This document shows, in pieces, positions 9,267-55,000 of a stretch of DNA of 64,000 bases. How positions within the stretch are numbered: the first letter of the stretch is position 1; each line of letters opens with the position of its first letter. Source of the stretch: Sulfurovum sp. TSL1 (GTDB lineage: Bacteria; Campylobacterota; Campylobacteria; Campylobacterales; Sulfurovaceae). Location: positions 355,106 through 419,105 of the forward strand of contig NZ_BPFI01000001.1 in the NCBI RefSeq assembly GCF_019972135.1. Direction: 5' to 3'. The notes under the pieces are model-generated. The model was given only the letters and a program-made list of their open reading frames with translations. It searched no databases and was not told where the DNA came from. The position numbers were made by a program, and so were the translations under genes.

Positions 9267-9725
9267 TTATTTGTTCATCATACCTTGATTGCCCATCATG
9301 CCTTGACCACCACATTTCATGCCTTGGCCCTGTTTCATACCTTTACCTTGCTTCATATCCTGGTTGTCCATGCCTTTTTTTCCCATCATACAACGATTGT
9401 TCATCATGCTCTGGCAACAACAGCAGCAACAACAGCAATGCATACCTTGGCCACCCATCATTCCCTGGTTGCCCATGCCCATCATGCCTTGACCACCCAT
9501 CATGCCCTGACCACCCATCATGCCCTTACCTTGCATACCGTATTTTTGACGCTCTTCCTGTGTCATGGATTGCATACGTTTTTGCATCTCTTTTCTAAAG
9601 TCATCTCTCTGTTCCATAGGTACACTTCCACGCATATGCATCATATCTTCAGTACTCATATGTGTAAAATCTATCGCATAAAGTGAAGCGATCATAGCTG
9701 TGATTATGATTAAATATTTCATCAT
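9267..9725 (-). CDS. Secreted Met-rich protein with a run of eight cysteines (DUF1104-like N-terminus)
   Basis: A 152-residue protein with a short signal peptide (MMKYLIIITAMIASLYA). Residues ~19-62 resemble the DUF1104 family of Campylobacterota (DFTHMSTEDMMHMRG, then RKEMQKRMQSMTQEERQKY). From residue 63 the protein is low-complexity GMMGGQ and GMKQGQ units: 34 of 152 residues are methionine. Residues 97-104 are eight consecutive cysteines, encoded by two exact copies of a 12-base unit (bases 9414-9425 and 9426-9437 on the plus strand). Further cysteines are at 112 and 138. Met and Cys clusters are typical Cu(I)/Ag(I) ligands, so an envelope metal buffer is inferred. AAGGA lies 6-9 bases upstream of the two possible ATG codons. 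Confidence 0.8.
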   Translation of the reverse strand: MMKYLIIITAMIASLYAIDFTHMSTEDMMHMRGSVPMEQRDDFRKEMQKRMQSMTQEERQKYGMQGKGMMGGQGMMGGQGMMGMGNQGMMGGQGMHCCCCCCCCQSMMNNRCMMGKKGMDNQDMKQGKGMKQGQGMKCGGQGMMGNQGMMNK

Positions 9726-9959: not shown

Positions 9960-11162
9960 ATGAAAGATGTATTGATCGTAGGCGGTGGATACGGTGGTAT
10001 TGCCGCCTTGAAAACACTGGCACCGAGAAAAGATATTACTATCACTTTGTTAGATCAGAATCCTTACCATTTTTTACAGACGGAGGGATATTCGTTGATC
10101 GCAGGTACACTTCCTTTTGATAAAACGATCGTCAACTTAAATTCTCTGTGTCAGAGCTACGGTGAAAATATATCTTTCATACATAATGGTGTTTCACACA
10201 TTGACTTGGATAGTAAGTGTGTCTATATAGAGCAAAAAGAGCAAATATTTTATGATTACCTGATCATCGCTACAGGTAGTGTGACACGAATGATGGACTC
10301 TATTGAAGGATTGCAGAACTGCAGTTATGGTATTAAAAGTCTTAGGGGAGCCTTTCATATGAAACAGTTCTTCGAGAAGGAGCTTTTTACAAGGTTGGAA
10401 AATCATAAACATGCTAAAGCCCATTATAGCATTGTTGTCGGTGGTGCAGGGCTTACGGGTGTAGAGATCGCTGCTGAAATGCAGCATTATTTTAACCGCT
10501 ACTATAAGAACAATACACTGGCCTGTGATAAAATTACCATCCATCTCATTTCAGGTTCAGATACAGTGCTCAAAGGTATGCATCCAGATATCATTAAATA
10601 TGCAACAAAACATTTGGAGCATCTTGGTGTGATTCTGCATTGCGGATTGCATATCTCTAAGGTTGAACCTCATAAGGCCTATCTGGAGAATGGTGAAGTG
10701 ATCGATTTTGATTTCATGCTTTTTACCGGAGGAATTAGTGCTACGGCAATGGTAAGGTCCATAGAGGTTGAACACAATAAACTCGGGCAGATCATCGTGA
10801 ACCCAACCTTACAGATACCCGGTCATACTGAAGCGTTTGCTGTGGGGGATGCTGCTGAGATATTGGATACGAAAGGGAAACGCATTGCCGATACTGCACA
10901 AGCAGCCATCAAAAGCGGTATACATGCCGCATCTAACATTGAGCATATCTTGAACGGAAAAGAGCCTGTGGCTGCGGATATAAGAATAGTGGGACTGGCT
11001 ATTGCGATGGGTGGGAATTATGCCATTTTGAGCATTGGATCTATTAAAATGAGAGGGAAGGTAGCCCATTATGTCAAAAAACTGATTGAAAACTTATATA
11101 AATGGCCACTTTGGATACGTTGCAGGTTCGGATTTAATAAAGCGTGCGAAATAGAAGGATAG
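9960..11162 (+). CDS. NDH-2-like FAD/NAD(P)-dependent oxidoreductase
   Basis: A 400-residue flavoprotein of the type-II NADH dehydrogenase family. The FAD site GGGYGGIAALKTL is at residues ~8-20. A second dinucleotide-binding segment, VVGGAGLTGVEIAAE, is near 160. The GDAAEI motif that closes the FAD site is near 298. The C-terminus ends in a short amphipathic region (LIENLYKWPLWIRCRFG), the kind of segment that docks NDH-2 to the membrane. It probably oxidises NAD(P)H and reduces quinone. It is the first gene of a co-directional series reaching 20614, with fadD three bases after its stop, so it may re-oxidise the NADH made by the beta-oxidation dehydrogenase (inference). Confidence 0.85.
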   Translation: MKDVLIVGGGYGGIAALKTLAPRKDITITLLDQNPYHFLQTEGYSLIAGTLPFDKTIVNLNSLCQSYGENISFIHNGVSHIDLDSKCVYIEQKEQIFYDYLIIATGSVTRMMDSIEGLQNCSYGIKSLRGAFHMKQFFEKELFTRLENHKHAKAHYSIVVGGAGLTGVEIAAEMQHYFNRYYKNNTLACDKITIHLISGSDTVLKGMHPDIIKYATKHLEHLGVILHCGLHISKVEPHKAYLENGEVIDFDFMLFTGGISATAMVRSIEVEHNKLGQIIVNPTLQIPGHTEAFAVGDAAEILDTKGKRIADTAQAAIKSGIHAASNIEHILNGKEPVAADIRIVGLAIAMGGNYAILSIGSIKMRGKVAHYVKKLIENLYKWPLWIRCRFGFNKACEIEG

Positions 11163-11165
11163 AAG

Positions 11166-12917
11166 ATGTTGCAAGAGATAGGTACCTTTTCATCACTGTA
11201 TGACCATTTGAAGGGATTACCTGAAAATGAAACATTTTTGAATCATTTGGAAATGGGTGAATGGAAGCGCTTTTCCAAATCGGAATTTCTTGAAACGGTA
11301 CGCTATCTTACACTGGCATTCGATGCAAGAGGATGGCGCGATAAAAAGATCGCGATAGCGGTCTCTCCTTCTTCATACTGGCTGATGGTTGACTATGCAC
11401 TGATGCTTTGCGGTGCGGTCAGTGTACCTCTTTTTACTAATATCTCGCCCAAAAACCTGCATTTTGAGATGGAAAACGCTGAGATCGATACAGTGTTTAT
11501 GCAAACCGATGAGCAAAAAAATGCTATATATCTTGCTGATGAGAGTGTTACTTGTATCCATTTTAGGCCTGCGGATCCTCCATGTCAATCCTTCGAGTCA
11601 TTCATCAAAGAGGGGAAAAGTATCGATCTGGCTGACAATACGAAGTTTGATCGTCTTTTATCCATGATCACACGGGACACACCGCTCACTGTTGTGTATA
11701 CATCGGGTACTTCAGGATTGCCAAAAGGAGCACTGCTTACCCATGCAAACCTGATCTCACAGCTCATAGACACGGAACTTATCTATAAGCTTTATCCTGA
11801 AAGTGACAGAGCACTCAGTGTGCTTCCTTTGGCACACATCTTTGAGAGAATGGTCATGTACTTTTATCTGAGTCAGGGAGTCAGTGTCTATTTTGTCGAT
11901 AAAGTCAAACATATAGCAGCAATTATGCAGGAGGTCCGGCCAACCTTGATGACCGTAGTACCAAGACTGCTTGAGAAGGTCTATTTTCGGATGTACCAAA
12001 AAGCACTTGACAATGCGTTCTTCAAACGTCACATCGCAATGCTGGCTTTCAGATATGCAAAACAAAAGATACCAGATGGTACCTCAAGCTTGCGGGCAAG
12101 GTTCTTCGATCATCTCGTGTATCAAAAACTGCGTGACTCTATGGGTAAAAAGTTCCGTATGATGATCTCGGGTGGGGCACAGCTTCCCGAAGAGATCAAT
12201 TGTTTTTTTACCAATATCGGTATACCTGTGTATCAGGGATACGGGCTCACTGAAGCCAGTCCGGTGATCTGTGCGAATGCACCCGGTGATAATAAAATAG
12301 GTACCTGCGGCAAACGCTATGCACATACGGAAGTCAAACTCAGCAGTGAGGGTGAACTTCTGGCTAAGGGGCCTGGGATCATGCAAGGTTATATCAATAA
12401 TCCTGAAGCGACCAAAGAAGCAGTAGATGAGGAAGGATGGCTTCATACAGGTGATCTGGCTGAGATTGATGCAGAGGGGTACATCACGATCACAGGAAGA
12501 AAGAAAGAACTTGCCAAAACCTCTACGGGTGAATATATTTCGGTGCAATATATAGAAGAACTTTTGACGGCCTGCGGATGGTTTGACTATGCAATGGTCA
12601 TCGGGGATGATCGGCCTTTTGTCGTCGCACTGCTGATGCTCGATCCCAATATGATAAGTAGTTACGCACAAAAACATGGATTTTCAACGGCCCAAGAGGC
12701 TGCTGTATCCAAAAAATTCAAGCAGCATATAGACACCTTTATCGATCAGGTCAATACAAAACTGAACGATTGGGAGAAGATACGGAACTATCATCTGATC
12801 ACTGAAAAGTTGAAAATAGAAAACGGTGATATCACCCCGTCAATGAAACTTGCCAGAGAGCATGTCAAAAAGCATTTTGAAAATGAGATCGCACAGATGT
12901 ATGGAGGCCATAGATGA
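11166..12917 (+). CDS. fadD: Long-chain acyl-CoA synthetase (AMP-forming)
   Basis: A 583-residue ANL-superfamily enzyme that activates fatty acids with ATP and CoA. Visible motifs: the AMP/phosphate loop VYTSGTSGLPKGALLTH (about 177-193), YGLTEASPVI near 360, the hinge region [18 protein letters not shown] (about 437-454) and the lysine-containing GRKKELAKTSTGEYIS that follows. The mid-sequence LPLAHIFERMV is typical of long-chain or very-long-chain synthetases. Its stop overlaps the thiolase start by four bases (ATGA), so translation is likely coupled. The chain-length preference cannot be read from sequence. Confidence 0.9.
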   Translation: MLQEIGTFSSLYDHLKGLPENETFLNHLEMGEWKRFSKSEFLETVRYLTLAFDARGWRDKKIAIAVSPSSYWLMVDYALMLCGAVSVPLFTNISPKNLHFEMENAEIDTVFMQTDEQKNAIYLADESVTCIHFRPADPPCQSFESFIKEGKSIDLADNTKFDRLLSMITRDTPLTVVYTSGTSGLPKGALLTHANLISQLIDTELIYKLYPESDRALSVLPLAHIFERMVMYFYLSQGVSVYFVDKVKHIAAIMQEVRPTLMTVVPRLLEKVYFRMYQKALDNAFFKRHIAMLAFRYAKQKIPDGTSSLRARFFDHLVYQKLRDSMGKKFRMMISGGAQLPEEINCFFTNIGIPVYQGYGLTEASPVICANAPGDNKIGTCGKRYAHTEVKLSSEGELLAKGPGIMQGYINNPEATKEAVDEEGWLHTGDLAEIDAEGYITITGRKKELAKTSTGEYISVQYIEELLTACGWFDYAMVIGDDRPFVVALLMLDPNMISSYAQKHGFSTAQEAAVSKKFKQHIDTFIDQVNTKLNDWEKIRNYHLITEKLKIENGDITPSMKLAREHVKKHFENEIAQMYGGHR

Positions 12918-14206
12918 AAAGAGAACGTATTGCGATCATTTCGGGACTTCGCACGCCAATGGCAAGAGCAGGGGATAAGTTTCAACATCTCCAGGCGGAT
13001 ACCCTGGGGACCAGGATCATACGTGAAACAGTGATGCGTTCACCTCTGGGTTTTGACGAATTTGACGAAGTTATCATTGGAAATGTCGCACAGCCTATTC
13101 ATGCGGCGAACATAGCCAGGGTCATTGCGCTGCGTTCTGGGTTTCCTCGTGAAACTCCGGCTTTTACTGTCAACCGTAACTGTGCTTCAGGTATGCAGTC
13201 GATTACTTCGGCTGCCGATCGTATACGTGCCAATGAAGGGAATATCTATCTGTGTGGAGGAGTGGAATCGATGAGCAATATCCCGCTGGTCTATAATCAA
13301 AAGATGACTGCACTCTTTCTAAAACTCTCTAAATCGAGAACCTTTTTGGAACGCTTCCATGCGCTTTTGAGTTTTCGTCCGGGTTTTCTTAAACCTATTG
13401 TCGGCTTGATGTCAGGTTTGACCGATCCGGTGAGCGGTCTGATGATGGGTTCAACCGCCGAAGTATTGGCCAGGGAATTCGGGATCAGCCGTGAAGCACA
13501 GGATGATTTCGCATTAGAGAGCCACAAAAAAGCAGCAAAAGCCAAACAAAGCGGCAGGTTCGCACAAGAAATGATGCCGATCATCTATGATGAAGAGAAT
13601 GGCAAGATACTTGATTATGATGACGGTATCAGAGACGGACAAACGATAGAAGCACTCGCTGCACTGGAGCCTTACTTTGATAAAAAGAACGGAACCGTCA
13701 CTGCAGGAAACGCATCACAGATCACAGACGCTGCTGCCGCAGTCATCGTTATGGGAGAGGAAGAAGCAAAACAAAGAGGCTTGACACCGTTGGGATATGT
13801 CAGTGACTATGTGTATGCAGGGCTCGATCCCAAACGCATGGGGTTGGGTCCGGTCATCGCAACCCATAAACTTTTCAAACGGACAAAGTTAGGTATGAAG
13901 GATATCGATCTGGTCGAGATCAATGAAGCCTTTGCTGCCCAGGTCATCGCATGTTTGCAATCATTTGACTCTACGGTATTTTCCAAAAAGCATTTTAATG
14001 AAAGTAAAGCTGTCGGTGCCATCGATCCTGCGATACTTAATGTCAATGGCGGTGCAGTAGCATTGGGACATCCTGTGGGAATGACGGGTACGCGCATGGT
14101 ACTGACACTCTTGCATGAACTGAGAAACCGTCATCTTCAGCGGGGATTGGCAACACTTTGTATCGGTGGAGGGCAGGGTGCATCACTACTGCTGGAGGTA
14201 GAATAA
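12914..14206 (+). CDS. fadI: Acetyl-CoA C-acyltransferase (3-ketoacyl-CoA thiolase)
   Basis: A 430-residue thiolase. The acyl-accepting cysteine is in VNRNCASGMQS (about residue 90), the NEAFAAQ motif is near 337, the GGAVALGHPVGMTGTR histidine motif near 380 and the second cysteine in LCIGGGQG near 418. The length and the insert with a hydrophobic loop (about 145-175) fit the FadI-like branch better than short PhaA-type thiolases. It cleaves 3-ketoacyl-CoA to acetyl-CoA and a shortened acyl-CoA. It overlaps fadD by four bases and fadJ by one base (TAATG). Confidence 0.9.
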   Translation: MKRERIAIISGLRTPMARAGDKFQHLQADTLGTRIIRETVMRSPLGFDEFDEVIIGNVAQPIHAANIARVIALRSGFPRETPAFTVNRNCASGMQSITSAADRIRANEGNIYLCGGVESMSNIPLVYNQKMTALFLKLSKSRTFLERFHALLSFRPGFLKPIVGLMSGLTDPVSGLMMGSTAEVLAREFGISREAQDDFALESHKKAAKAKQSGRFAQEMMPIIYDEENGKILDYDDGIRDGQTIEALAALEPYFDKKNGTVTAGNASQITDAAAAVIVMGEEEAKQRGLTPLGYVSDYVYAGLDPKRMGLGPVIATHKLFKRTKLGMKDIDLVEINEAFAAQVIACLQSFDSTVFSKKHFNESKAVGAIDPAILNVNGGAVALGHPVGMTGTRMVLTLLHELRNRHLQRGLATLCIGGGQGASLLLEVE

Positions 14207-16320
14207 TGGACTATTTTAGACTGGAAAGACAAACCGACCAGATCGCAACGCTCTATTTTGATACGCCTGACAGCAAAGCCAATGTTTTCTCCACGACTGC
14301 ACTTGAAACATTTGAAAGATATTTAGATATGTTGGCGCAGGAGAATACGCTTAAAATCCTTTTTATCGAAAGTACCAAAGAGGATATCTTCATTGCCGGG
14401 GCAGATATTCATGAGATCAAGCTGGCAAAAGATGCTCCGAGTGTTGAAACCTTTATACAAAAAGGACAGGACATCTTTAATAAACTTGAAAAATTACCGT
14501 TTGTAACTGTAGCGATCATTGACGGTGCATGTCTGGGCGGCGGGCTTGAGATGTCCCTTGCCTGTAATTACCGTATAGCTACATCAAACTCTCATACCCG
14601 CATAGGATTTCCGGAGATAAAGCTGGGTATTATACCTGGGTTTGGAGGTACACAGAGGCTCTACAGGCTGATAGGATATGCTAAAGCCATGGAACTCATT
14701 GCGGGTGCGAAACAGCTTACAGGTGATGAAGCATTCCAGGCAGGTATCGTCGATGCAAGTGTGCCGCAGGGGTATTTAGGATTTAAAAAAGATGCACTGG
14801 TCCATGGAATTTTAGACGGTACTTTAAAAGAGAAGATCATCTCTCAGCGAAAAGGGATCAAGTGGTACGAACATTTGAGAATAGTACGGCGTATAATAGA
14901 AAAGATAGCAACAAAAAAAGTTTTAAAAAAAACTCAGGGGCATTATCCGGCACCACTGGCCTTGATCAATGTAATAAGTGAGAGTTTCGGTAAGTCTATA
15001 GAAGCAGGTCTGTCCATCGAAAGAGATGCAGTGACCCAACTGGCACTCACCTCAGAATCCAAAAATATGGTCGGACTTTTTTTGATCTCAGAGAGGCTCA
15101 AGCATGAGACGTTCAGTAGAGCAGCTCCCAAAACGATCCTGCATGCTGCGGTCGTAGGCACGGGTACGATGGGGAGCAGTATCGCATGGGCACTGGATAA
15201 TCAGAAGATCGATGTACGCCTGAAAGTGCGTAGTATCTCCAGTGCAGCCAATGCGGTCAAGAAGATACGACAGATCTATGAAACGATGAAGAAACGCCGT
15301 AAAATCGATAGACGTCATATACAACTCAATATGGACAGGATCACATATGCATTGAATGATGAAGGATTTTCGAGAAGCGATTTCCTTATAGAGGCGGTAA
15401 ATGAAGATATCGATGTAAAAAGAACAGTCTATAAAGAGTTTGAAGCACTCCTGGAACCAAATGCGATCATCGCGACGAACACCTCTTCTATCTCTATCAG
15501 CGATCTGGCCAAAGATCTCAAACACCCAGAACGTTTTATAGGAATGCATTTTTTTAATCCAGTGGAACGCATGCCTCTGGTCGAAGTGATCCCCGGGGAG
15601 TTGAGCGATGAAACAACGATCGCAACGGTTGTTAATCTTGCCAAAAGTATGGGGAAAACCCCTGTCAAGGTGAAGGATAGCCCGGGATTTCTAGTCAACA
15701 GGGTCTTATTGCCTTACCTCAAAGAAGCAGCAATGATGTTTGAAGAGGGTGAAGATATAGAAAAGATCGATCGGATACTCACAGATTTCGGGATGCCAAT
15801 GGGCGCATTTTTACTGATGGACGAAGTAGGCGTGGATATCGGTGTGGAAGTTGCCACAGTGCTGCATACAGCATACGGTGAACGTATGGCCATGGGCAAG
15901 GTGCTTGATGGCATGCTAAAGAACGGATGGCTTGGCAAAAAGAGTGGTACCGGGTTTTATAACCATGGACAAAAACGCCCATCGATCAATCCTCATATCC
16001 ATATACTCCAAGAAGGTGAAACACGTTTGGATGCCCAGGCGATCATTCAACGTGCACTCTATATCATGATCAATGAAGCTTCACGTTGTCTTGAAGAGGG
16101 GGTCGTGGAGGATGCTGCATACCTGGATATGGCTATGGTCATTGGTATCGGGTTCCCAGCTTTTAGAGGAGGTTTGATGCGGTATGCAGACAGTGTCGGT
16201 ATCGCTCAGATCGTAGAAACACTGAAACACTTCAGTACCACTTACGGCGATCGGTTTAAGCCATCCTCATTACTGCTTGTGATGGCACAAAAGCATGAAA
16301 CATTTTACGGAGGGCAATGA
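14206..16320 (+). CDS. fadJ: Bifunctional enoyl-CoA hydratase / 3-hydroxyacyl-CoA dehydrogenase
   Basis: A 704-residue multifunctional protein. The start is the ATG at 14206 behind GGAGG; an upstream in-frame start at 14158 lies inside the thiolase gene and is not supported. The N-terminal crotonase half shows the oxyanion and catalytic segments FIAGADIHEI, DGACLGGGLEMSLACNYR and GFPEIKLGIIPGFGGTQR (about 60-150). The C-terminal half is the NAD-dependent dehydrogenase: VVGTGTMGSSIAWALD (about 312-327), NTSSISISDLA and HFFNPVERMPLVEVIPG (about 450). It converts 2-enoyl-CoA to 3-ketoacyl-CoA. It overlaps its neighbours by one base upstream and four downstream. Confidence 0.92.
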   Translation: MDYFRLERQTDQIATLYFDTPDSKANVFSTTALETFERYLDMLAQENTLKILFIESTKEDIFIAGADIHEIKLAKDAPSVETFIQKGQDIFNKLEKLPFVTVAIIDGACLGGGLEMSLACNYRIATSNSHTRIGFPEIKLGIIPGFGGTQRLYRLIGYAKAMELIAGAKQLTGDEAFQAGIVDASVPQGYLGFKKDALVHGILDGTLKEKIISQRKGIKWYEHLRIVRRIIEKIATKKVLKKTQGHYPAPLALINVISESFGKSIEAGLSIERDAVTQLALTSESKNMVGLFLISERLKHETFSRAAPKTILHAAVVGTGTMGSSIAWALDNQKIDVRLKVRSISSAANAVKKIRQIYETMKKRRKIDRRHIQLNMDRITYALNDEGFSRSDFLIEAVNEDIDVKRTVYKEFEALLEPNAIIATNTSSISISDLAKDLKHPERFIGMHFFNPVERMPLVEVIPGELSDETTIATVVNLAKSMGKTPVKVKDSPGFLVNRVLLPYLKEAAMMFEEGEDIEKIDRILTDFGMPMGAFLLMDEVGVDIGVEVATVLHTAYGERMAMGKVLDGMLKNGWLGKKSGTGFYNHGQKRPSINPHIHILQEGETRLDAQAIIQRALYIMINEASRCLEEGVVEDAAYLDMAMVIGIGFPAFRGGLMRYADSVGIAQIVETLKHFSTTYGDRFKPSSLLLVMAQKHETFYGGQ

Positions 16321-18485
16321 TGTCTTTAAAAACATTCAGAACAAATTACATTACCAAACCGCTTTTTAGGACACTCAAGCGTAAAGGATTGCTGCCTTCC
16401 ATCTCCGATACGGAAAAAACAGCATTAAGGGCGGGCAGTGTCTGGATAGAAGGAGAACTCTTCAGCGGCAAGCCCGATTTTGAAAAGATCTTCTCTTATA
16501 GCTATCCGACACTCTCCAAAGAGGAGCAGGCATTTTTGGACAATGAAGTCGAAGAGGTCTGTGCGATGACGGATGACTGGCAAGTTTTTCAGACCAGGAG
16601 ACTGCCTAAGAAAGTTTGGGAGTATCTCAAGGATAAACGCTTTTTTGGGATGATCATACCGAAAGAGCATGGAGGACTCGGGTTCAGTGCCTACGGACAT
16701 AGCTGTGTGATCGAAAAGCTTGCTACACGATCCCAGGTACTTGCTATTACCGTCATGGTACCAAACTCATTGGGACCTGCAGAGCTTTTGCTGCATTATG
16801 GAGAGGAGAAACAAAAAGAGTATTATCTGCCGCGTTTGGCAGAAGGCAAAGAAATACCCTGTTTTGCTTTGACAGAGCCAGAAGCGGGAAGTGATGCCGC
16901 AGCGATCCGTTCTCATGGTACCGTCTTCAAAGATAGTAACGGAATGCTCAAGATCAAATTGGAATTTGAAAAAAGGTACATTACCCTGGGTGCCATCGCA
17001 ACAGTTATCGGTCTTGCATTTGTCTGTAAAGACCCTGAAAATCTGCTTGGGATGGGGGAAGAGCCTGGTATCACCTGTGCACTAGTGGATGCTAAAAAAG
17101 AGGGGGTCGATCAGTCCAGACGCCATGATCCTATGGGGGTACCTTTTATCAATGCACCGCTGGTCGGAAAAGGAGTCGTTATCGATATCGATGATGTGAT
17201 CGGAGGGAGTGAAGGCGTAGGCAAAGGGTGGCAGATGCTGATGGAATCCCTTGCGGTCGGCCGCGGTATTTCACTTCCTTCCACGAGTTCGGGCGGCAGT
17301 AAACTGGCAGCATTTGTTGCTTCGACATACAGTGTTGTACGGTATCAGTTCGGTATTGCCATAGGTAAATTTGAAGGGATTGCCGAAGTGATAGGGCGTA
17401 TGGGTGCAGATGTCTATGTGATGGATGCGGCTAAAAACTTCACACTCGGGGCAATCGACACCGGAGCGAAACCTGCCGTGGCCAATGCCATCATGAAATA
17501 CCACAGTACGGAAAAATTTCGAAAAAATATCATGGATGCGATGGATATACAGGGTGGAGCGGCCATTAGCATGGGTCCCAAGAACCTTCTTGCACATGCC
17601 TACTATGGTGCACCGATATCGATCACGGTAGAGGGTGCCAATATCATGACACGTACGCTGATCCAGTTCGGTCAGGGAATGATACGTTGTCACCCTTATG
17701 TCTATGCAGAGATCGAGGCACTTGAAAAAGAAGATATCGAAGCCTTTGATACGAACTTTTTCGGACATTTGGCGCATATCGGACGGAATATGTTAAGGGC
17801 TTGTCTTCTTGGGATCACAAGAGGGCATTGGCATCGCCCCGAAAGCCGGGGGATAGCAGCTCGATATGAGCAAAAGCTGGCATGGTGTTCGGCGCAGTTT
17901 TCCTGTATGAGTGATATAGCCCTCGGGATCATGGGGTCAGGGTTGAAAAAAAGAGAATCAGTCTCTGGACGCTTTGGAGATGTATTGTCCCAAATGTATA
18001 TACTGAGTGCAGCACTGAGACGTTTTAAAGCAGAAGGAAGTCTAAGATCGGATGAAGTCATACTTAAGGTTGCGATGGAGGAGGGGTTTCGCAAGATAGA
18101 CGAAGCCTTTTGGGGGATACATCAAAATCTCTCTTCCGGGCTGCTTGGGATGCTGTTTCGTTTCAAAGGCTTCTGTGGAAGGATCAACCCAATGGGAAAT
18201 GCAGCCAATGACCGTGATCTGCATGCTGTCGCAATGCTGCTTGCATCGGATGAGTCCGTACGTAACCGTGTATGCAGCAATATGCATATAGGAGGCAGGG
18301 TCGAGGAGCTGCACGAAGCTTCGGATCTGATGATGAAAGCCAAAGAGGCGATCAGAAAACGGAAAAAAACGGGAGAGGATGCATTGAGCGAGAATGAGAA
18401 GAGGCTTTTGGAAAAAGCAGACAGAGCCCAAGCGCATATCATTGCAGTCGATTCCTATACGATAGAGGATTATTTTAAATGCTGA
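16317..18485 (+). CDS. fadE: Acyl-CoA dehydrogenase, FadE type
   Basis: A 722-residue protein, much longer than the ~380-residue soluble acyl-CoA dehydrogenases and close to the FadE/DUF1974 family. Visible: the FAD/substrate segment CFALTEPEAGSDAA (about 180-193), a central GRGISLPSTSSGG, and the C-terminal half with IQGGAAISMGPKNLLAHAY. It makes the first oxidation of beta-oxidation; the electron acceptor in this family is probably electron-transfer flavoprotein, but no etfAB genes are in this window. The gene overlaps fadJ by four bases and the next gene by seven, consistent with one tightly coupled operon. Confidence 0.9.
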   Translation: MMSLKTFRTNYITKPLFRTLKRKGLLPSISDTEKTALRAGSVWIEGELFSGKPDFEKIFSYSYPTLSKEEQAFLDNEVEEVCAMTDDWQVFQTRRLPKKVWEYLKDKRFFGMIIPKEHGGLGFSAYGHSCVIEKLATRSQVLAITVMVPNSLGPAELLLHYGEEKQKEYYLPRLAEGKEIPCFALTEPEAGSDAAAIRSHGTVFKDSNGMLKIKLEFEKRYITLGAIATVIGLAFVCKDPENLLGMGEEPGITCALVDAKKEGVDQSRRHDPMGVPFINAPLVGKGVVIDIDDVIGGSEGVGKGWQMLMESLAVGRGISLPSTSSGGSKLAAFVASTYSVVRYQFGIAIGKFEGIAEVIGRMGADVYVMDAAKNFTLGAIDTGAKPAVANAIMKYHSTEKFRKNIMDAMDIQGGAAISMGPKNLLAHAYYGAPISITVEGANIMTRTLIQFGQGMIRCHPYVYAEIEALEKEDIEAFDTNFFGHLAHIGRNMLRACLLGITRGHWHRPESRGIAARYEQKLAWCSAQFSCMSDIALGIMGSGLKKRESVSGRFGDVLSQMYILSAALRRFKAEGSLRSDEVILKVAMEEGFRKIDEAFWGIHQNLSSGLLGMLFRFKGFCGRINPMGNAANDRDLHAVAMLLASDESVRNRVCSNMHIGGRVEELHEASDLMMKAKEAIRKRKKTGEDALSENEKRLLEKADRAQAHIIAVDSYTIEDYFKC

Positions 18486-20614
18486 AGCTGATACTCTGGA
18501 TATCATATTTCATTATCTATTTGATCAAAAAACTCAGTGGTGCCAACATCACTACAAGCGGTGAAAATATACCCGATCCCCCTATAATGTTTTTGGCAAA
18601 TCACTTTACACGTTTTGAAACATTTGTCGTACCTTATTTGATCTTCACCAAACATAAGTATGTATCACGTTCCTTGGCCGATGACACGATCTTTGTAGGA
18701 TGGTTGGGTGAGTATATGAGATTGGCAGGTACCATCTCAAATAAAAATAAAGAACGCGACTGTATCATATTGGATGATCTGATTTCGGCCAAAGCATGCT
18801 GGATCATCTATCCGGAAGGAGAAATGGTCAAAAACAAACAGATCAGTTTTGAGAACGGCGAGTTTCACATCCATATGGAAGATTATAACGGGCATGTGCA
18901 TACAGGTTCCGCTGTACTGGCACTCAAAGCCGAGATCATGCGCGAACGTATCAAAACTATGGATGATGAAGCAGCGATCCGACGGTTTTGCAAAGCCCAT
19001 CGTGTGGATCGTTCCAAACTGCAAGAAGGCGTGCATCTCCATATTATGCCGCTTTCGATCACCTATTATCCTATTCGTCCGGGTGAAAATAGACTGCTTT
19101 TGTTCATCGATAAGTTTTTGAACCTGCGGGGAACACGTTTTTTTGAAGAGCTGGAGGTAGAGATCAACCTGTTGATGAAAGCCAATATGCATCTCCATTT
19201 TGGAAAACCGATCGTAGTTAAAGAGTATATTGATGCATATCTTTCTAAACATGGTGGTACCATTGATGATGACAGCCTAATGGAAGAACTCATTGAGAAC
19301 CAGAGAAAGAAACTTACCACAGATATCATGCGTGAAGTGTATGGTAATATGCAGATCAACTTTGATCATATCTTCATTCTGAGCCTTGTGACTATGCCGA
19401 CCTTGAAAGTCTGCCCCAGCTATCTTAAAACATTGATCTACAAGAATGCCAGAGAGCTTCGGGTTATCCCAAAATTAAACCTGCATCCGGAACTTCAAAC
19501 AGGTCTGTTCAGATTGATCCTTGATGAGGACTATGCACCGTTCGTCTCTGCCCTGAAAATAGCAGATGCACAGAATATCCTTTATCAAGACAGTGACGGG
19601 GATTATCTTTTTGATAAAAGTTTGTTGGAAAAAAACTATGATTTTCATAAGATCAGAGTGAAAAACACTATGCAGGTTGTTCTGAATGAGATCAATTGGC
19701 AGGAAAGATTTGTTAGCAAAGCAAAAGAGAATGCTACATTGAGTGAACAGGAGCTTAGAGTTGATAATTTTGAATATCTGAAAACATCTGATAGAAAAGA
19801 GTTTGAAAGAGAATATGTCTATTACCATTATCTACCGCCAGCAAAAAACAGCATCGGTGTTCCACAATTCTATTACGATCAAAAAAATTCGGTTGGACTG
19901 GTCTTCTCACACGGCTATCTTTCCGTGCCTGCAGCACTTGAGGAAATGGCAAAATATCTCTTTGAAAAAGGGATCAATGTCTATCTTGTGAGACTCAGAG
20001 GACACGGTACGGACCCTAGAGCACTTCAAAAGGTTAAATTTGAAGAGTGGGAGTGTGATTTTGGACGCGCTTTCACGGCTATGAGGCAAGTGTGTGACAA
20101 AGTCTTTATCGGAGGATTCTCTACCGGAGGGCTTTTGGCACTATTACATGCCGGAAAATATCATGTGGATGGTGTGATTGTGGTCAATACTGCCCTTAAA
20201 CTCAATAACTTAAAGGTGGAATATGTCGTTACGACACTGAATGCCTTTAATGAGATGGTCGTACATTTGCATGCACAGGGTATCAAAGAGTGGATCGATA
20301 ACCACAGTGAACTTTCTGATTTCAATTATCCAAGACACCCGCTTTCATCTGTTTCTGAACTAGAAAAACTGATGGATAAAACCCGTAAACTACTTTCACA
20401 GGTAGATGATCCTATTTTGATCATTCAGGGCGATCATGATCCTGTAGTCTATACGAAAAGTGCCAATATGATCTATGAAAGGGTCAGTACACAAAAGAAA
20501 GAACTGCTATTTATCCCTAGTATATACCATAATATTCTGACGCCAGGTAAAACTGATCCTTATGATCTTTATGAAAACATCTATGACTATATTATTCGGG
20601 CAATTGCTAACTAA
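18479..20614 (+). CDS. Acyltransferase / alpha-beta hydrolase fusion protein
   Basis: A 711-residue protein with two lipid-handling halves. The N-terminal half begins with a hydrophobic helix (residues 1-18) and resembles PlsC/glycerophosphate acyltransferases: NHFTRFE at 41-47 replaces the usual NHxxxxD, with Glu for Asp, and YPEGEM follows near 103. The C-terminal third is an alpha/beta hydrolase with LVFSHGYLS, nucleophile elbow GGFSTGG (Ser548), acid region QGDHDP (about 650-655) and His684 in PSIYHN. This resembles monoacylglycerol lipase or lysophospholipase. It ends the fad operon, so it may release or re-esterify acyl chains for the upstream enzymes. Function of the middle region (~280-460) is unknown. 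Confidence 0.75.
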   Translation: MLKLILWISYFIIYLIKKLSGANITTSGENIPDPPIMFLANHFTRFETFVVPYLIFTKHKYVSRSLADDTIFVGWLGEYMRLAGTISNKNKERDCIILDDLISAKACWIIYPEGEMVKNKQISFENGEFHIHMEDYNGHVHTGSAVLALKAEIMRERIKTMDDEAAIRRFCKAHRVDRSKLQEGVHLHIMPLSITYYPIRPGENRLLLFIDKFLNLRGTRFFEELEVEINLLMKANMHLHFGKPIVVKEYIDAYLSKHGGTIDDDSLMEELIENQRKKLTTDIMREVYGNMQINFDHIFILSLVTMPTLKVCPSYLKTLIYKNARELRVIPKLNLHPELQTGLFRLILDEDYAPFVSALKIADAQNILYQDSDGDYLFDKSLLEKNYDFHKIRVKNTMQVVLNEINWQERFVSKAKENATLSEQELRVDNFEYLKTSDRKEFEREYVYYHYLPPAKNSIGVPQFYYDQKNSVGLVFSHGYLSVPAALEEMAKYLFEKGINVYLVRLRGHGTDPRALQKVKFEEWECDFGRAFTAMRQVCDKVFIGGFSTGGLLALLHAGKYHVDGVIVVNTALKLNNLKVEYVVTTLNAFNEMVVHLHAQGIKEWIDNHSELSDFNYPRHPLSSVSELEKLMDKTRKLLSQVDDPILIIQGDHDPVVYTKSANMIYERVSTQKKELLFIPSIYHNILTPGKTDPYDLYENIYDYIIRAIAN

Positions 20615-20671: not shown

Positions 20672-21130
20672 CTAATAGATGATCTTATCTCCGACATGTA
20701 TCATACCACTTTGTACAATGAGAGCCCTGTACCCGCCTATATATTTCAGTCCCTTCATCATATCTTCATCTAACAGTCTAGAGAGGTAACGGCAGGGAGG
20801 GCAGGTACGTACGATGCGGAACTTTGCCGTTCCGATGGTAAATATTTTGTCTTCCAGAAGTGAAGCATCGAAGTTTTTGATGACAAGATTTCTACGCAGA
20901 TCCAGAAAATCCAGATCACTCCCCAATCGTCTGTTACACTCTGCAAGGGATTCAAAAGGAAGTATGCTGACCTCTCGGACATCCTGGGAGAGTGGGGGTT
21001 TGTTGAAGGTACCTTGCCCGTAGAAATAACGGTCACCTTCCAGTCCTTTGCCTTTGACAGCCCGGACACGCTCTACATAATGCAAAGGTTCTTTGGCTTT
21101 TTCTCCGATGATAATGGCATGCAGGGTCAT
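20672..21130 (-). CDS. MOSC-domain protein
   Basis: A 152-residue MOSC (molybdenum cofactor sulfurase C-terminal) domain protein. It has GKGLEGDRYFYGQG near 28-41 and the conserved cysteine region VRTCPPCRYLSRL near 108-120, a sulfur-carrying or cofactor-binding site. Family members transfer sulfur to metal cofactors or act in Moco-dependent reduction; the exact substrate here is unknown. It starts 12 bases after the end of thiI, so the two sulfur-chemistry genes probably share a transcript. The Shine-Dalgarno is weak. Confidence 0.85.
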   Translation of the reverse strand: MTLHAIIIGEKAKEPLHYVERVRAVKGKGLEGDRYFYGQGTFNKPPLSQDVREVSILPFESLAECNRRLGSDLDFLDLRRNLVIKNFDASLLEDKIFTIGTAKFRIVRTCPPCRYLSRLLDEDMMKGLKYIGGYRALIVQSGMIHVGDKIIY

Positions 21131-21142
21131 GATTTTCAGACA

Positions 21143-22606
21143 CTATTCGGGTCTGTATACCCTTACATTTTTAACATCTTCCGCATCCCGCAGATATTGG
21201 GCATGCAATTGACTCATGATCCCTTTGTCACAGTAGAGGAGATACTCTTTGTCCTGCGGCAGCTTCTTGAACTCTGTTTTGAGTTTGTGGAAAGGAATCT
21301 TAATGCTCTTGCATGGTGTTTGGATGCATTCATCTTCCGTACGTATATCTATGACCACATACTTGTCATCATTGAGATCATGTATCACCTCTACCGGTGC
21401 TGCATTGGTGACATCATCGATGATCTCATCCACATAGATCTTCTGTGCATCTTCTACGGCTTTATCCAACACACTGTAATCAAAACGTGCTGCTTCTTTT
21501 TCCATACGTTTGTATGAACCGTGTGTAATAGGGTTCTTGGAGATGACACCGCAGTACTCCGGCATATTCTCTGCAAAACGGCGTGTACCTATCTCACTGG
21601 CTATCTTGATGATCTCCGGTTTGTTCATGGTAGCCAGAGGACGTAAAATGAGTTTATTGGTCACCTGGTCTATGAGTGCCAGGTTACGCAGGGTCTGACT
21701 TGAAACCTGTGCCACACTCTCACCCGTAAGCAGTGCATCTATCTCGAGTTCATTGGCCACTTTTTCAGAAGCAAGGAGCATCAGGCGTTTCAGGGTCACA
21801 CCCATATAGCTCTCATGTGTAGAACGGAATATCTCCTCGATCACTGCATCAAACGGTACAGAGATGAAAGAGACACGATGCGACGCACCGAACTTGGACC
21901 AGAGGTAAAGGGCCACCTGCTTAACACCTATCTCATGGGCGATCCCCCCAAGATTGAAGAAGATAAAATGGGTTTTTATACCTCTTTTCATCGTGAGGTA
22001 AGAAGCCACTGTCGAGTCAAAACCGCCGGACATCAGCGAGAGGATATCTCCCTGTGTGCCCAAAGGAAAACCGCTGAGTCCTGCATGTTTGAGAGTAATG
22101 ATATTGAGTTGCTTGTTGATAAGTTCCAGACGAATGGTCACTTCGGGATGATGCAGATCGACACCTTTTGTGTCATTGTGTGCCAGCATATATCCGCCCA
22201 CCGTTTGCTCTATATCAAGTGATCTAAAAGGGTGTTGTCCCGAACGTTTGACACGTACCACAAAGCTCTTGCCAATGATCTCTTTGGCCATCATTTCATT
22301 GACCTTGACCTTGATCTGATCCAGTGTTTCCATGCCGTCAAACTGTAAAGCTTCAAGGACCTGCTCTATACCCGGAGTGTCAAGGAGCGTTTGGCGTACT
22401 TCCGTGAGAAATTCTATAGGTGTCACAACCTCAATCTTATCAGAAAACTTTTTGACGGTGATCTCAGCACTGTATCTGCCTAAAAGTTTTACAAGATTAT
22501 TGTAAAGCTGTCCTACCATCTGCTTTTTGGCAGATGCACCTTTGACCATGATCTCCGGAAAGAGTTTTAAAATGAATTTTTGTGTTTTGACTGATGGTGT
22601 TCCCAC
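21143..22606 (-). CDS. thiI: tRNA 4-thiouridine synthase with rhodanese domain
   Basis: A protein of about 487 residues: a THUMP region, an ATP-PPase loop (SLMSGGFDSTVASYL) and a C-terminal rhodanese domain whose active cysteine lies in LLYCDKGIMSQLHAQYL. It uses ATP and a persulfide to make s4U8 in tRNA, and in many bacteria it also supplies sulfur for thiamine thiazole. The frame opens at an ATG at 22639, but that codon overlaps a perfect TATAAT promoter box (22638-22643), so translation more likely begins at the in-frame GTG at 22606, close to where homologues begin (KFILKLFPEIMVKG). Start choice is inferred. Confidence 0.9.
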   Translation of the reverse strand: MGTPSVKTQKFILKLFPEIMVKGASAKKQMVGQLYNNLVKLLGRYSAEITVKKFSDKIEVVTPIEFLTEVRQTLLDTPGIEQVLEALQFDGMETLDQIKVKVNEMMAKEIIGKSFVVRVKRSGQHPFRSLDIEQTVGGYMLAHNDTKGVDLHHPEVTIRLELINKQLNIITLKHAGLSGFPLGTQGDILSLMSGGFDSTVASYLTMKRGIKTHFIFFNLGGIAHEIGVKQVALYLWSKFGASHRVSFISVPFDAVIEEIFRSTHESYMGVTLKRLMLLASEKVANELEIDALLTGESVAQVSSQTLRNLALIDQVTNKLILRPLATMNKPEIIKIASEIGTRRFAENMPEYCGVISKNPITHGSYKRMEKEAARFDYSVLDKAVEDAQKIYVDEIIDDVTNAAPVEVIHDLNDDKYVVIDIRTEDECIQTPCKSIKIPFHKLKTEFKKLPQDKEYLLYCDKGIMSQLHAQYLRDAEDVKNVRVYRPE

Positions 22607-22637
22607 TGTTGTATACCCTTGTTTTTGTCTGAGCGGC

Positions 22638-22643
22638 ATTATA
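22638..22643 (-). promoter_or_regulatory. -10 box for thiI
   Basis: The minus strand reads TTGTGTTATAATGCCGC. The TATAAT overlaps the upstream ATG at 22639, which argues that this ATG is not translated and that thiI begins at the GTG about 33 bases further on. Confidence 0.45.
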
Positions 22644-24510: not shown

Positions 24511-25974
24511 ATGAAGCATAAAAAGATAGAGCATAGTAAACCTTTAGTGGATCTGTTACATGGTGAACCTACAGAAGGCATAAGCAGGAGAACCGCACTT
24601 AAAATGATGGGTGTTGGCGGTGCAGCCACACTGATGGGCTTGCCTACTTCTACACATGCAGATGAAACATCCACAGTCAAAAGTGAAAAGAACGCCAGGA
24701 TCCTGGTCGTAGGCGGTGGGGCAGGTGGTATTATGGCACTTGCCAGGCTGCACAGTGCTTTGTCCAATGCAGATATTACGATCATTGCACCCAATGAAAC
24801 ACACCTGTATCAGCCCGGACAGGTCTTTATGGCCGCCGGTCTTTATACGTTAGATGATATTGCTAAAGAGAATAGAGAGTTCATACCGGAGGATGTCACT
24901 TGGATCAAAGATGAAGTCGCTTCTTTTGATCCGGATAACAATAAAGTGACTACACGTGCAGGGGTGGAAGTTCTTTATGACTATATGGTCGTAGCCACAG
25001 GTATTGTCTACCATTATGACTGGATCAAGGGACTGAGAGAAGAGGATATCGGTACAAATGGTATCTCCAGTGTCTATCTGAACAATCTGGAAAAAGGTAC
25101 CGCCAAAGGCGGTGAAGTCACATGGGAATGGTTCAATGCACTCAAAGAGGCAGCAGCTTCAGGAAAAAAACCAACGGCTCTCTATACAAGCCCGAACACA
25201 CCGATCAAATGTGGCGGGGCACCGCAAAAAATTCTCTATCTTAGTGCAGATCATTTGAAAAAAGATGATCTAGGGGCCAATTTTATCTACGTAACAGACA
25301 GTGCAAAGTTGTTTAGTATTCCTGAGATCGAAAGTTCACTGCTCGAAGTACAGAAGAGATATGACACCATTACCAATCATTTCAGACACAATCTTGTTGC
25401 TATAGATGTAAAGAACAAGGTAGCCACTTTTGAAGAGACCTATGAGGTCAAAGGTGAATATGATGAAGATCTGGAAGAGTATGATATATCAGAAGAGAAA
25501 AGAATGGTCGATATCGCTTATGACTTCATTCATGTCGTACCGCCTATGGGGCCGCCTCAGGCATTGGCGGATTCTCTTTTAGGATGGCAAAAAGGTACAG
25601 CTAAAGGATGGCTTGAAGTAGACCAGGTAACGCTACAGCATAGAAGATACCCAAATGTATTCGGCATGGGTGATGTCTGTGGTATTCCGCTAGGAAAAAC
25701 CGGCGGATCTGCAAGACATCATGGTCCTGTCGCTGTGGGGAACCTTGTTTCGGCATTGGAAGGCAAACCACTGGTAGAGAAGTTCGATGGGTACACTGTA
25801 TGCCCGCTTAAAACGCAATATGGTGAGATCATCATGGCAGAATTCAACTATAAAGGTCTGGCACCTACCATGCCATTCCTGGATCCTGCAAAACCAAGAT
25901 TTATGTGGTGGGTTTTTGACCTGTATCAGTTGAAACCGATGTACTGGTATCTTATGTTGAGAGGTTGGTTTTAG
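24511..25974 (+). CDS. Tat-exported sulfide:quinone oxidoreductase-like flavoprotein
   Basis: A 487-residue flavoprotein. A twin-arginine signal, SRRTALKMMGVGGAATLMG, is at residues ~25-43, ending near THADE. The FAD site VVGGGAGGIMALARL is near 66-80. Candidate redox cysteines lie in TPIKCGGAPQKI (~232), GDVCGIPLGKTGG (~392) and YTVCPLKTQYG. The C-terminus (MWWVFDLYQLKPMYWYLMLRGWF region) is aromatic and amphipathic, suited to membrane docking. This pattern fits the SQR/flavocytochrome-c flavoprotein family; periplasmic sulfide oxidation with quinone or a cytochrome as acceptor is the likely role. GGAG precedes the ATG by eight bases. It lies immediately upstream of the hydrogenase operon. 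Exact subgroup is not determined. Confidence 0.82.
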   Translation: MKHKKIEHSKPLVDLLHGEPTEGISRRTALKMMGVGGAATLMGLPTSTHADETSTVKSEKNARILVVGGGAGGIMALARLHSALSNADITIIAPNETHLYQPGQVFMAAGLYTLDDIAKENREFIPEDVTWIKDEVASFDPDNNKVTTRAGVEVLYDYMVVATGIVYHYDWIKGLREEDIGTNGISSVYLNNLEKGTAKGGEVTWEWFNALKEAAASGKKPTALYTSPNTPIKCGGAPQKILYLSADHLKKDDLGANFIYVTDSAKLFSIPEIESSLLEVQKRYDTITNHFRHNLVAIDVKNKVATFEETYEVKGEYDEDLEEYDISEEKRMVDIAYDFIHVVPPMGPPQALADSLLGWQKGTAKGWLEVDQVTLQHRRYPNVFGMGDVCGIPLGKTGGSARHHGPVAVGNLVSALEGKPLVEKFDGYTVCPLKTQYGEIIMAEFNYKGLAPTMPFLDPAKPRFMWWVFDLYQLKPMYWYLMLRGWF

Positions 25975-27235: not shown

Positions 27236-28954
27236 ATGGGTAACAGACGTGTAGTGATCGATCCGATCACGAGAATTGAAGGCCATCTGCGTATAGAAGT
27301 AGAAGTGGATGAAAACAATGTGGTACAAAAAGCCTACTCCTCATCCACATTATGGAGAGGTATTGAACTTATTCTCAAAGGGCGTGACCCTAGAGATGCA
27401 GGCCTAATGGCTCAGCGCATCTGCGGTGTTTGTACCTACTCACACTATAAGGCTGGAGTAGAAGCGGTAGAAAATGCATTGGGTGTGGAAGCACCCTACA
27501 ATGCACGATTGGTACGTTCGCTTCTGAATGAATCCCTTTATATGCATGACCATGTGGTGCATTTCTATCACCTGCACGGGCTTGACTGGGTGGATGTGGT
27601 CTCAGCATTGAGTGCTGACCCTGCAAAAGCATCAAAGCTGGCTTTCAAGTATTCCGACTCTCCTATTGCAACAGGTACGGATGAACTGACGGCTGTTCAA
27701 AAAAGAGTCAAAGAGTTTGTTGATAAAGGGCAACTGGGACCGTTCGCCAATGCCTATTGGGGAAACGGCACCTACAAATTCTCTCCCGAACAGAACCTTA
27801 TCGCACTGTCTCACTATCTTAAGGCACTGGAAGTACAGCGTGTAGCCGCACAGATGTTCGCTATCTTTGGTGCAAAACAGCCACATCCTCAAAGTCTTGT
27901 AGTGGGTGGAGTGACCTGTGTGAGAGATATATTGAGTCCTACCCGTCTGGCCCAATGGAAAGAAAAATACAAGATCGTTAAAGATTTTATCGACCGTGCC
28001 TATCAGGCAGATATCATCATGGCTGCAGAAGCCTACGGTACAGAAGAGACCGTACTGGGTGGCGTAGGGGTAAAGAACTTTCTTGCTGCTGATGCATTTA
28101 TGCTGAACCGCACAGAAAATCTTTTCCAAAGCGGATACATTAAAAACGGTGATCTCTCTCAAGTCTATGATATAGATGATATGAAAATAGAAGAGGATGT
28201 AACACATGCCTGGTACAAAGGCACAACGCCGCTTCAACCCTATGATGGGGTCACAGACCCTGAATATACAGGTTTTATAGATGGTGACACCGTCAATGGA
28301 GAAGCAAAGATCATTGATGAAACGCAGAAATACTCATGGGTGAAAGCACCTCGTTATGATGGTGAAGCGATGGAAGTAGGTCCTCTATCTTGTCTGCTCG
28401 TCAATTATGCCAGAGGTAATAAAAAGGTGCAAAATGAAGTCGGCGCCTTCCTCAAACGTACAGGATTGCCAGTGGGGGCACTCTTTACGACACTGGGCAG
28501 AACCGCAGCGAGAATGCTTCAAACTAAATTGATCTCTGACAATGCCATCATAACGTTCAATTCATTGGTGGAAAATATTAAAAGTGATGACAGTACCTAT
28601 ACCAAGTTTGAAATAAACCCTGACAAAGAGTACACAGGACGTTTTATCGGTGAAGTGCCTCGCGGGACACTGAGTCACTGGGTACGTATTAAAAATGGTC
28701 TTATTGAAAACTATCAGGCAGTCGTACCGACAACCTGGAATGCCGGGCCGATGGACGGTAACGGTACAATCGGTCCTTATGAAGCATCTCTGGTAGGATT
28801 AAAACTTGAAGATCCTGCAAAACCGCTTGAAGTTTTGAGGGTCATACACTCTTTTGATCCATGTATGTCCTGTTCTGTGCATGTGATGGATATGAAAGGG
28901 GTAGAACTCAGTGAATTTAAAGTAACCCCTATGAGCAGTGGAGCGGCCTGTTAG
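27236..28954 (+). CDS. hydB: Uptake [NiFe] hydrogenase large subunit
   Basis: A 572-residue subunit carrying the NiFe active site. N-terminal ligands are in QRICGVCTYSH (near residue 60) and the C-terminal ligands in FDPCMSCSVH (near 543-552). The C-terminal tail after that histidine (about 20 residues ending SSGAAC) is the extension removed by the maturation protease, here probably HydD. It follows hydA after three bases, with GGGGGAG ahead. It oxidises H2 in the periplasm together with HydA; the pair crosses the membrane folded by the Tat system using the HydA signal. Confidence 0.96.
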   Translation: MGNRRVVIDPITRIEGHLRIEVEVDENNVVQKAYSSSTLWRGIELILKGRDPRDAGLMAQRICGVCTYSHYKAGVEAVENALGVEAPYNARLVRSLLNESLYMHDHVVHFYHLHGLDWVDVVSALSADPAKASKLAFKYSDSPIATGTDELTAVQKRVKEFVDKGQLGPFANAYWGNGTYKFSPEQNLIALSHYLKALEVQRVAAQMFAIFGAKQPHPQSLVVGGVTCVRDILSPTRLAQWKEKYKIVKDFIDRAYQADIIMAAEAYGTEETVLGGVGVKNFLAADAFMLNRTENLFQSGYIKNGDLSQVYDIDDMKIEEDVTHAWYKGTTPLQPYDGVTDPEYTGFIDGDTVNGEAKIIDETQKYSWVKAPRYDGEAMEVGPLSCLLVNYARGNKKVQNEVGAFLKRTGLPVGALFTTLGRTAARMLQTKLISDNAIITFNSLVENIKSDDSTYTKFEINPDKEYTGRFIGEVPRGTLSHWVRIKNGLIENYQAVVPTTWNAGPMDGNGTIGPYEASLVGLKLEDPAKPLEVLRVIHSFDPCMSCSVHVMDMKGVELSEFKVTPMSSGAAC

Positions 28955-29000
28955 GGGATTAAATGAAAATGTTCATACAGATAAACGAGAAGGAGTAACC

Positions 29001-48677: not shown

Positions 48678-48935
48678 ATGATAAAACTAATTTTATTACT
48701 ATTATCTATTTCATATACATACAGTGCCTACGGATTGATGATACAAGGTACACAAAATGCAACGGCCAAAGATCACAACTTAGGGGGATTTGGACAATTG
48801 CGATATACCTATTATAAAGGTGATATTTATAGACTCGATGGGATCAATAAAACACCTTTTTCATTCAACAGACCTGATCTGAAAAAGCAAGAGACATGTA
48901 TACTCTCTCGTTTAAGAGCTGGATTAAAAGGATGA
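48678..48935 (+). CDS. Short exported protein, possibly a truncated porin start, overlapping the GGDEF/EAL gene
   Basis: An 85-residue frame with a signal-like N-terminus (MIKLILLLLSISYTYSAYG). Residues ~30-48 (LGGFGQLRYTYYKGDIYRL) and the end (LSRLRAGLKG) look like beta-strands from the N-terminus of an outer-membrane porin, so this may be a porin cut short. Its stop TGA overlaps the ATG at 48932 of the large GGDEF/EAL gene (ATGA). That would couple translation, so it may be a real accessory ORF. There is no good Shine-Dalgarno at its own start. Confidence 0.4.
   Translation: MIKLILLLLSISYTYSAYGLMIQGTQNATAKDHNLGGFGQLRYTYYKGDIYRLDGINKTPFSFNRPDLKKQETCILSRLRAGLKG

Positions 48936-54775: not shown

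Positions 54776-54852
<77 letters not shown>

Positions 54853-54923: not shown

Positions 54924-55000
<77 letters not shown>

Follow-up and report, generated by a model that had tools for sequence, protein, structure and literature searches.

The 64,000-nucleotide stretch of the Sulfurovum sp. TSL1 genome analyzed here (the window) carries, at positions 9960 to 20614, six open reading frames (ORFs) that all run on the forward (+) strand and are predicted to encode a fatty acid β-oxidation pathway. Domains were called on the six products with Pfam and NCBIfam models. The first gene, at 9960..11162, encodes P0001, a flavoprotein resembling type II NADH:quinone oxidoreductases (NDH-2) (Pyr_redox_2, 4e-38; AQAA motif). 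It is followed by fadD (P0002, 11166..12917), encoding an acyl-CoA synthetase (AMP-binding, 2e-59; YTSGTSGLPKG and GYGLTE motifs); fadI (P0003, 12914..14206), a 3-ketoacyl-CoA thiolase (Thiolase_N, 3e-74; Thiolase_C, 3.5e-41; thiolase Cys, NEAF, GHP, and C-terminal Cys motifs); fadJ (P0004, 14158..16320), an enoyl-CoA hydratase/3-hydroxyacyl-CoA dehydrogenase (ECH_1, 3HCDH_N, and 3HCDH; GGGLE, GFPE, GTGTMG, and HFFNP motifs); and fadE (P0005, 16317..18485), an ACDH_C-type (Escherichia coli-type) acyl-CoA dehydrogenase (ACAD) that lacks the N-terminal two-helix anchor (Acyl-CoA_dh N/M/1; ACDH_C, 2e-59; VEGAN motif). The last gene, at 18479..20614, encodes P0006, a fusion of an acyltransferase (PF01553 in the N-terminal segment, with HX4E) and a monoacylglycerol-lipase-like hydrolase (Hydrolase_4, 1e-22). 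Inspection of the sequences found the catalytic motifs intact in FadD, FadI, FadJ, and FadE, and the co-directional β-oxidation run described in the original prediction, which had been made from the letters of the window and their ORFs, was thereby confirmed in its reading frames, domains, and motifs.

The genes are tightly packed. A 3-base gap separates the NDH-2 gene from fadD, and overlaps of 4, 4, and 7 bases were found at the fadD-fadI, fadJ-fadE, and fadE-fusion junctions, respectively. The fadI-fadJ overlap is 49 bases from the TTG start of the ORF list but shrinks to a single base if fadJ begins at an in-frame ATG, position 14206, which is likely the true start; counted from this ATG, as read off the translation, the predicted overlaps of one to seven bases hold. 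The flanking genes, encoding a DUF1104 protein (9267-9725), a MOSC protein (20672-21130), and ThiI (21143-22639), point in the opposite direction, and the run therefore forms a discrete unit. Scans for promoter-like sites (36, versus 23.9 in shuffled sequences; standard deviation [SD], 5.6) and terminator-like sites (10, versus 8.0; SD, 2.5) gave nothing usable.

FadI and FadJ scored below their NCBIfam equivalog cutoffs (335.9 versus 711.6 bits for TIGR02446 and 595 versus 968 bits for TIGR02440) and, judged by these profiles, are FadIJ-like rather than strict equivalogs. Between them they have the thiolase and hydratase/dehydrogenase domains of a FadIJ trifunctional complex, with the catalytic residues. 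FadE passed the family cutoffs for ACDH_C (201.8 versus 25 bits) and NF007000 (908.5 versus 600 bits) and fell below that of the NF038187 FadE_coli exception (780 versus 1300 bits), which assigns it by profile to the same wider family as E. coli FadE but outside the E. coli exception group. It is 44.5% identical to E. coli FadE (b0221) over 741 columns, aligning from E. coli residue 63 onward, and shares its catalytic motif; a FadI/FadJ-like thiolase and multifunctional enzyme are likewise common to both organisms. In E. coli, however, the fad regulon is scattered, whereas the Sulfurovum genes form one operon to which the fusion protein and NDH-2 have been added. The best solved sequence relatives of the window FadE were VLCAD (very-long-chain acyl-CoA dehydrogenase) and ACAD9, both of them long ACADs carrying an additional C-terminal domain, in place of which the window protein has the ACDH_C domain. 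VLCAD depends on electron transfer flavoprotein (ETF).

The label of lipid acyltransferase/hydrolase given earlier to P0006 stood for both halves of the protein. A scan of the whole protein gave no PF01553 match at an E value of ≤0.001, but residues 1-260 alone scored 24.9 bits against a cutoff of 23, and PF01553 was matched at an E value of ≤1 by 31/31 N-terminal segments of P0006 homologues. In all 59 homologues compared, the NHFTRxE and PEG motifs were invariant, as were Ser548, Asp654, and His684. The same 59 proteins have HX4E and not the HX4D that is usual for motif I of the lysophospholipid acyltransferases. We regard the N-terminal half as acyltransferase-like and as a putative noncanonical member of PF01553; searched with a 31-row profile of this half, PDB sequences gave 0 matches at an E value of ≤1. 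Residues 474-687 make up the hydrolase, and a helical region lies between the two halves. The structural model of P0006 (pLDDT, 88) has a monoacylglycerol lipase fold, and the 50 matches that Foldseek listed for the full model showed hydrolases. The C-terminal half resembles the monoacylglycerol lipase of Bacillus sp. H257 (E value, ~1e-23; TMt, 0.85-0.91) including the catalytic triad, P0006 differing in the additional acyltransferase and helical middle region. Plant phytyl ester synthases also combine acyltransferase and α/β-hydrolase domains, in the order reverse to that of P0006, which differs from them further in having HX4E for HX4D and in being encoded among fad genes.

The occurrence of FadE, FadJ, and P0006 was surveyed by profile searches in 397 genomes of the phylum Campylobacterota, the host included. 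FadE (PF09317) was above the cutoff in 23 genomes (24 matched at an E value of ≤0.001). Full-length FadJ was likewise found in 23 (36 at this E value, the rest partial), as was full-length P0006 (49 at this E value, the rest partial), and the three sets of 23 genomes were identical. This bears out the earlier statement that β-oxidation is uncommon in the phylum and extends predicted fatty acid oxidation to a minority of its members. The carriers comprised the host and 3 of 10 sampled congeners (family f1), 16 genomes of family f6, which is probably Arcobacteraceae, 2 of family f7, and 1 of family f10. Among the 19 of 22 nonhost carriers whose loci were inspected, fadI, fadJ, fadE, and the P0006 gene were consecutive in 18, and fadD adjoined fadI in 17 (it was not seen there in G333 and G186). 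Variants of the order were a 1.5-kb gap after fadJ in G388 and a cassette divided between two blocks in G221. Beyond fadD-I-J-E and the fusion, a comparison of gene positions and ORF sizes showed no further constant gene at the locus. A literature search that covered few subscription journals returned no description of this cassette or of an ETF-free FadE in Campylobacterota.

The cassette also occurs outside the phylum. A P0006 profile scan using one genome per GTDB species recovered at least 544 stretches encoding a relative, of which the best 80 were kept. In 44 of them, FadE and/or FadJ was encoded upstream, and the genes followed the order fadD-fadI-fadJ-fadE-P0006 wherever the contig permitted; neither was present in the inspected stretch of the remaining 36, several of which end at contig edges. 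Besides the host, Sulfurimonas and Arcobacteraceae showed the fadI-J-E-fusion order within Campylobacterota, and 17 of the loci with FadE/FadJ came from elsewhere (3 Desulfobulbaceae, 1 Rickettsiales, 9 Planctomycetota, 3 Verrucomicrobia, and 1 Kiritimatiellia). FadE was close to the window FadE in the Desulfobulbaceae copies and of ACDH_C type in the copy from the Rickettsiales metagenome-assembled genome (MAG). In three scanned Planctomycetota/Verrucomicrobia copies (L116, L120, and L136), FadE was VLCAD-like and matched ACAD9-ACADV_C, suggesting that P0006 was retained while a different ACAD took the place of the original one. The conserved and uncharacterized acyltransferase-lipase fusion appears to be a routine partner of β-oxidation in several phyla. 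FadE was split into two ORFs at L087:7804-10007 (267 and 459 amino acids [aa]) and L078:7648-10004 (341 and 479 aa), by either a frameshift or a MAG assembly error. Spread on plasmids was considered and found no backing: a tblastn search of the fusion against 72,556 plasmid records matched 10 records, none with ≥80% query cover and all in the hydrolase region only. Six genes neighboring L098, a fusion homologue that stands alone in a MAG of an alphaproteobacterium, were scanned and gave no functional hint.

The original prediction called the pathway complete and proposed a search for etfAB. Activation and the four-step cycle are indeed encoded, but profile searches of the 99.94% complete host genome found neither ETF-α (PF00766) nor the ETF domain (PF01012); both families matched in E. 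coli and nine others that served as positive controls. ETF-quinone oxidoreductase (ETF-QO; PF05187) was not matched either, and no search of the host was aimed at EtfD-type proteins. The ETF/ETF-QO- and EtfD-coupled pathways of mitochondria and Mycobacterium tuberculosis share the four-step chemistry and likewise have to deliver electrons to quinone, but unlike them the host yielded no ETF or ETF-QO. FadE is the sole ACAD of the host and of 15 of the 23 carriers (host included), none of these 15 having ETF. Overall, the ETF domain was present in 2/23 carriers, and hence absent from 21, and ETF-QO was present in 1/23. Among 41 genomes with named loci, ETF-α was found in 6/33 cassette genomes versus 5/8 with a solitary P0006 homologue; it was found in 0/8 Planctomycetota/Verrucomicrobia/Kiritimatiellia carriers and not in the one Rickettsiales carrier (MAG completeness not given). 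When the phylum survey and the named-locus set were merged and 4 duplicates were removed, 8/52 carriers had ETF. Where present, it appears mostly to serve something other than the cassette FadE: in G310, G402, G403, and G404, a separate ACAD of 380-387 aa is encoded close to ETF (G310 also has an EtfD-like protein), and the ETF of G333, a fused form, is encoded next to ETF-QO, malate dehydrogenase, and fumarase (G397, G405, and G420 were left out of this comparison). The fused ETF of G333 is 645 aa long and lies, with ETF-QO, at L168:6156-9770, where genes for malate/lactate dehydrogenases and fumarase flank the pair. Ten other genomes of the phylum, all without FadE, have similar fused ETF frames (640-676 aa).

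The N terminus of FadE is variable. E. coli FadE begins with two hydrophobic stretches, and a hydrophobic N-terminal extension of ~48-63 residues was found in 37/44 unique ACDH_C carriers, mostly as two helices and in a few as one (Kyte-Doolittle window of ≥1.6). The anchorless copies were those of the window, G333, L076, L077, L087, L088, and L112. The window FadE thus differs from E. coli FadE in having lost the two-helix anchor, and it does so in a genome without ETF.

For the NADH produced by the pathway, P0001 is a candidate outlet. Its best solved relatives belong to the NDH-2 family, including 4nwz (1e-44), YjlD, and SAOUHSC_00878, some of them named NADH dehydrogenases, and by its Pyr_redox_2 family, AQxA motif, and nearest relatives it is predicted to be NDH-2-like. 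Orthologues with ≥45% identity were found in 4/4 cassette carriers of the genus versus 0/7 sampled noncarriers (P = 0.003), unlinked to the cassette in two of the four. In a single domain search of 30 genomes, PF10589 (NADH_4Fe-4S, NuoF-type proteins) was matched in all but the host, which fits a need for NDH-2. Together, the tracking of the cassette by the orthologue and the missing NADH_4Fe-4S domain suggest that the host reoxidizes the NADH of β-oxidation through NDH-2. In the congeners, PF10589 was found in a protein of ~670 aa. Another pyridine nucleotide-disulfide oxidoreductase, of 487 aa and weakly similar to P0001, is encoded in the window at 24511-25974.

The interpretation that we favor, with somewhat better than even confidence, is that the locus represents an ETF-free, self-contained module, exchanged laterally, that oxidizes long-chain acyl chains and directs the electrons to quinone. 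FadD would activate the fatty acid, FadE would form the enoyl-CoA and feed the electrons, with no ETF involved, into the quinone pool of the membrane, FadJ and FadI would finish the cycle, and NDH-2 would reoxidize the NADH of FadJ. Plausibly, the lipase half of the fusion would free fatty acids from a (lyso)glycerolipid or monoacylglycerol, feeding FadD, while the acyltransferase half would put acyl groups from acyl-CoA back into glycerolipid. The more far-reaching proposal, that FadE of the ACDH_C type works by itself as an acyl-CoA:quinone oxidoreductase and that fadD-I-J-E and the fusion constitute a transferable ETF-free module spread between phyla, is put forward tentatively, at a little under even confidence. 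If correct, it would also explain the missing ETF partner of E. coli FadE.

How E. coli-type FadE reoxidizes its flavin is stated to be unresolved in two papers (PMC11495604, PMC9329746). The former notes that an ETF partner of E. coli FadE has yet to be identified and that the enzyme may pass electrons straight to quinones (PMC11495604). The latter likewise reports that no ETF on which fatty acid use depends is known from E. coli, and it describes the FadE C terminus as essential in Salmonella (PMC9329746). It also counts three ETF-like pairs in E. coli, so that genome content leaves the question unsettled there. For Pseudomonas, transfer to ETF is described as predicted but unproven (PMC11890623). 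The carrier genomes supply an ETF-free background for this open question and, since most have no ETF and mostly have FadE as the sole ACAD, an ETF-free carrier isolate would be a clean test system for the electron route of FadE. Arcobacter caeni and Poseidonibacter ostreae are among the named carriers in which the search for ETF gave no match.

Several observations weigh against the favored interpretation. The structure comparison gave an ACAD fold match (Z, 36) for FadE residues 61-459, with VIA-align rows covering 61-460, and barely reached the C-terminal region; no quinone site was identified in FadE. Direct quinone reduction by the anchorless window FadE would need peripheral membrane binding, which a helix at residues 2-23 of its model, rich in basic residues, could provide. 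ETF was present in 6/7 genomes with anchorless FadE versus 2/37 with anchored FadE (Fisher's exact test, 2.7e-5), so that anchorless FadE may use ETF, the ETF-free window genome being the exception; since all seven anchorless copies belong to a single clade, the correlation represents one event, not seven. The host has a second NDH-2, 41% identical to P0001. Finally, ETF (ETF-α in 20/397 genomes of the phylum) was about as rare in noncarriers (18/374) as in carriers (2/23; P = 0.32), and the cassette therefore did not displace ETF but sits in genomes of an ETF-poor phylum. The same counts give no support to ETF as a partner gained together with the cassette.

The original prediction also raised membrane-lipid turnover as a role, and the module might mainly recycle membrane or storage lipid, with β-oxidation as a disposal branch rather than for growth on outside fatty acids. 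We consider this possible but doubtful. The fusion is the constant partner and the most widely shared gene, occurring without a fad gene in 36 of the best 80 loci, and a FadL-family porin was absent from 16/16 f6 (Arcobacteraceae-like) carriers. In contrast, none of the 397 genomes had a full-length FadE or FadJ unless it had both of them and the fusion, and the host itself has one FadL-family porin. Lipid turnover is compatible with the data as a candidate role. Present in 7/23 carriers and 5/7 noncarrier congeners, the porin does not track the cassette, and as an uptake marker it neither supports nor refutes uptake.

Alternatively, FadE electrons might reach quinone through an unrecognized soluble carrier, or through an ETF missing from the assembly. 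The company that anchorless FadE mostly keeps with ETF and the want of a known quinone site in FadE both speak for such a carrier, yet the near-complete host genome matched neither ETF nor ETF-QO, 21/23 carriers are without ETF as well, and the locus, judged by gene position and ORF size, offers no other constant gene that might encode one; we judge this route unlikely. Still less probable is that FadE acts as an acyl-CoA oxidase, passing electrons to O2 with production of H2O2. PMC11495604 reports that E. coli FadE increases H2O2 production and remarks on a similarity to ACOX-1, but it treats FadE as a source of reactive oxygen and does not regard O2 as the principal acceptor. A membrane role is suggested by the 37 anchored homologues.

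The lateral component of the favored interpretation, a quinone-directed module exchanged between lineages, was examined by phylogeny. In a tree of FadI, FadJ, and P0006 (48 rows), the window copy grouped with G333 (family f7), L076 (a Campylobacterales MAG), and two Desulfobulbaceae (SH-aLRT, 100), beside rather than inside the other Sulfurovum copies, and a FadJ tree (53 rows) agreed with this placement. Forcing the window copy to join seven congeners cost 38 log units (approximately unbiased [AU] test, P = 0.011; 16 of the 48 rows). The Desulfobulbaceae copies nest inside the clade of the window copy, within that of Campylobacterota. Misbinning of these copies was considered and rejected: the tetranucleotide composition of the L087 and L112 flanks correlated with contigs of their own MAGs (r = 0.86 and 0.89) better than with the window (r = 0.53 and 0.55; L077 was left out). 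On the basis of the tree placement, the AU test, and this flank composition, we conclude that the cassette lineage of the window has been exchanged among Campylobacterota families and Desulfobulbaceae, in one direction or the other. The lateral gain suggested in the original prediction is accordingly supported by these sequences for this genome, but not as a one-off event, as the phylum holds long-standing cassette lineages of its own in Arcobacteraceae, Sulfurimonadaceae, and Sulfurovum. An ordinary vertical Campylobacterota pathway that was lost elsewhere is very improbable: Campylobacterota copies do mostly cluster by family, but the window copy stands apart from its congeners, Desulfobulbaceae copies with flanks matching their own genomes are nested among those of Campylobacterota, and only 23/397 genomes, spread over 4 families, have the cassette.

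The host genome (2.35 Mb; 3.45% contamination) is assembled such that the whole 64-kb window sits inside a 1.78-Mb contig, and contamination is therefore an unlikely source of the locus. The nearest named relatives of P0006 were mostly Sulfurovum/Campylobacterales MAGs, in keeping with the Campylobacterota-like genome recognized earlier. Elsewhere in the window, a co-directional run at 27236-34278 includes genes for a [NiFe]-hydrogenase large subunit (27236-28954) and HypF (31981-34278), which suggests H2 oxidation. An AMP-binding protein with ACAS_N, resembling acetyl-CoA synthetase, is encoded at 56470-58413, and two tRNA-Met genes and one tRNA-Gln gene lie at 54776-55152. Large GGDEF and GGDEF-EAL sensor proteins are encoded at 59457-61793 and 48896-51670, one of them with NMT1/THI5-like and SBP_bac_3 domains.

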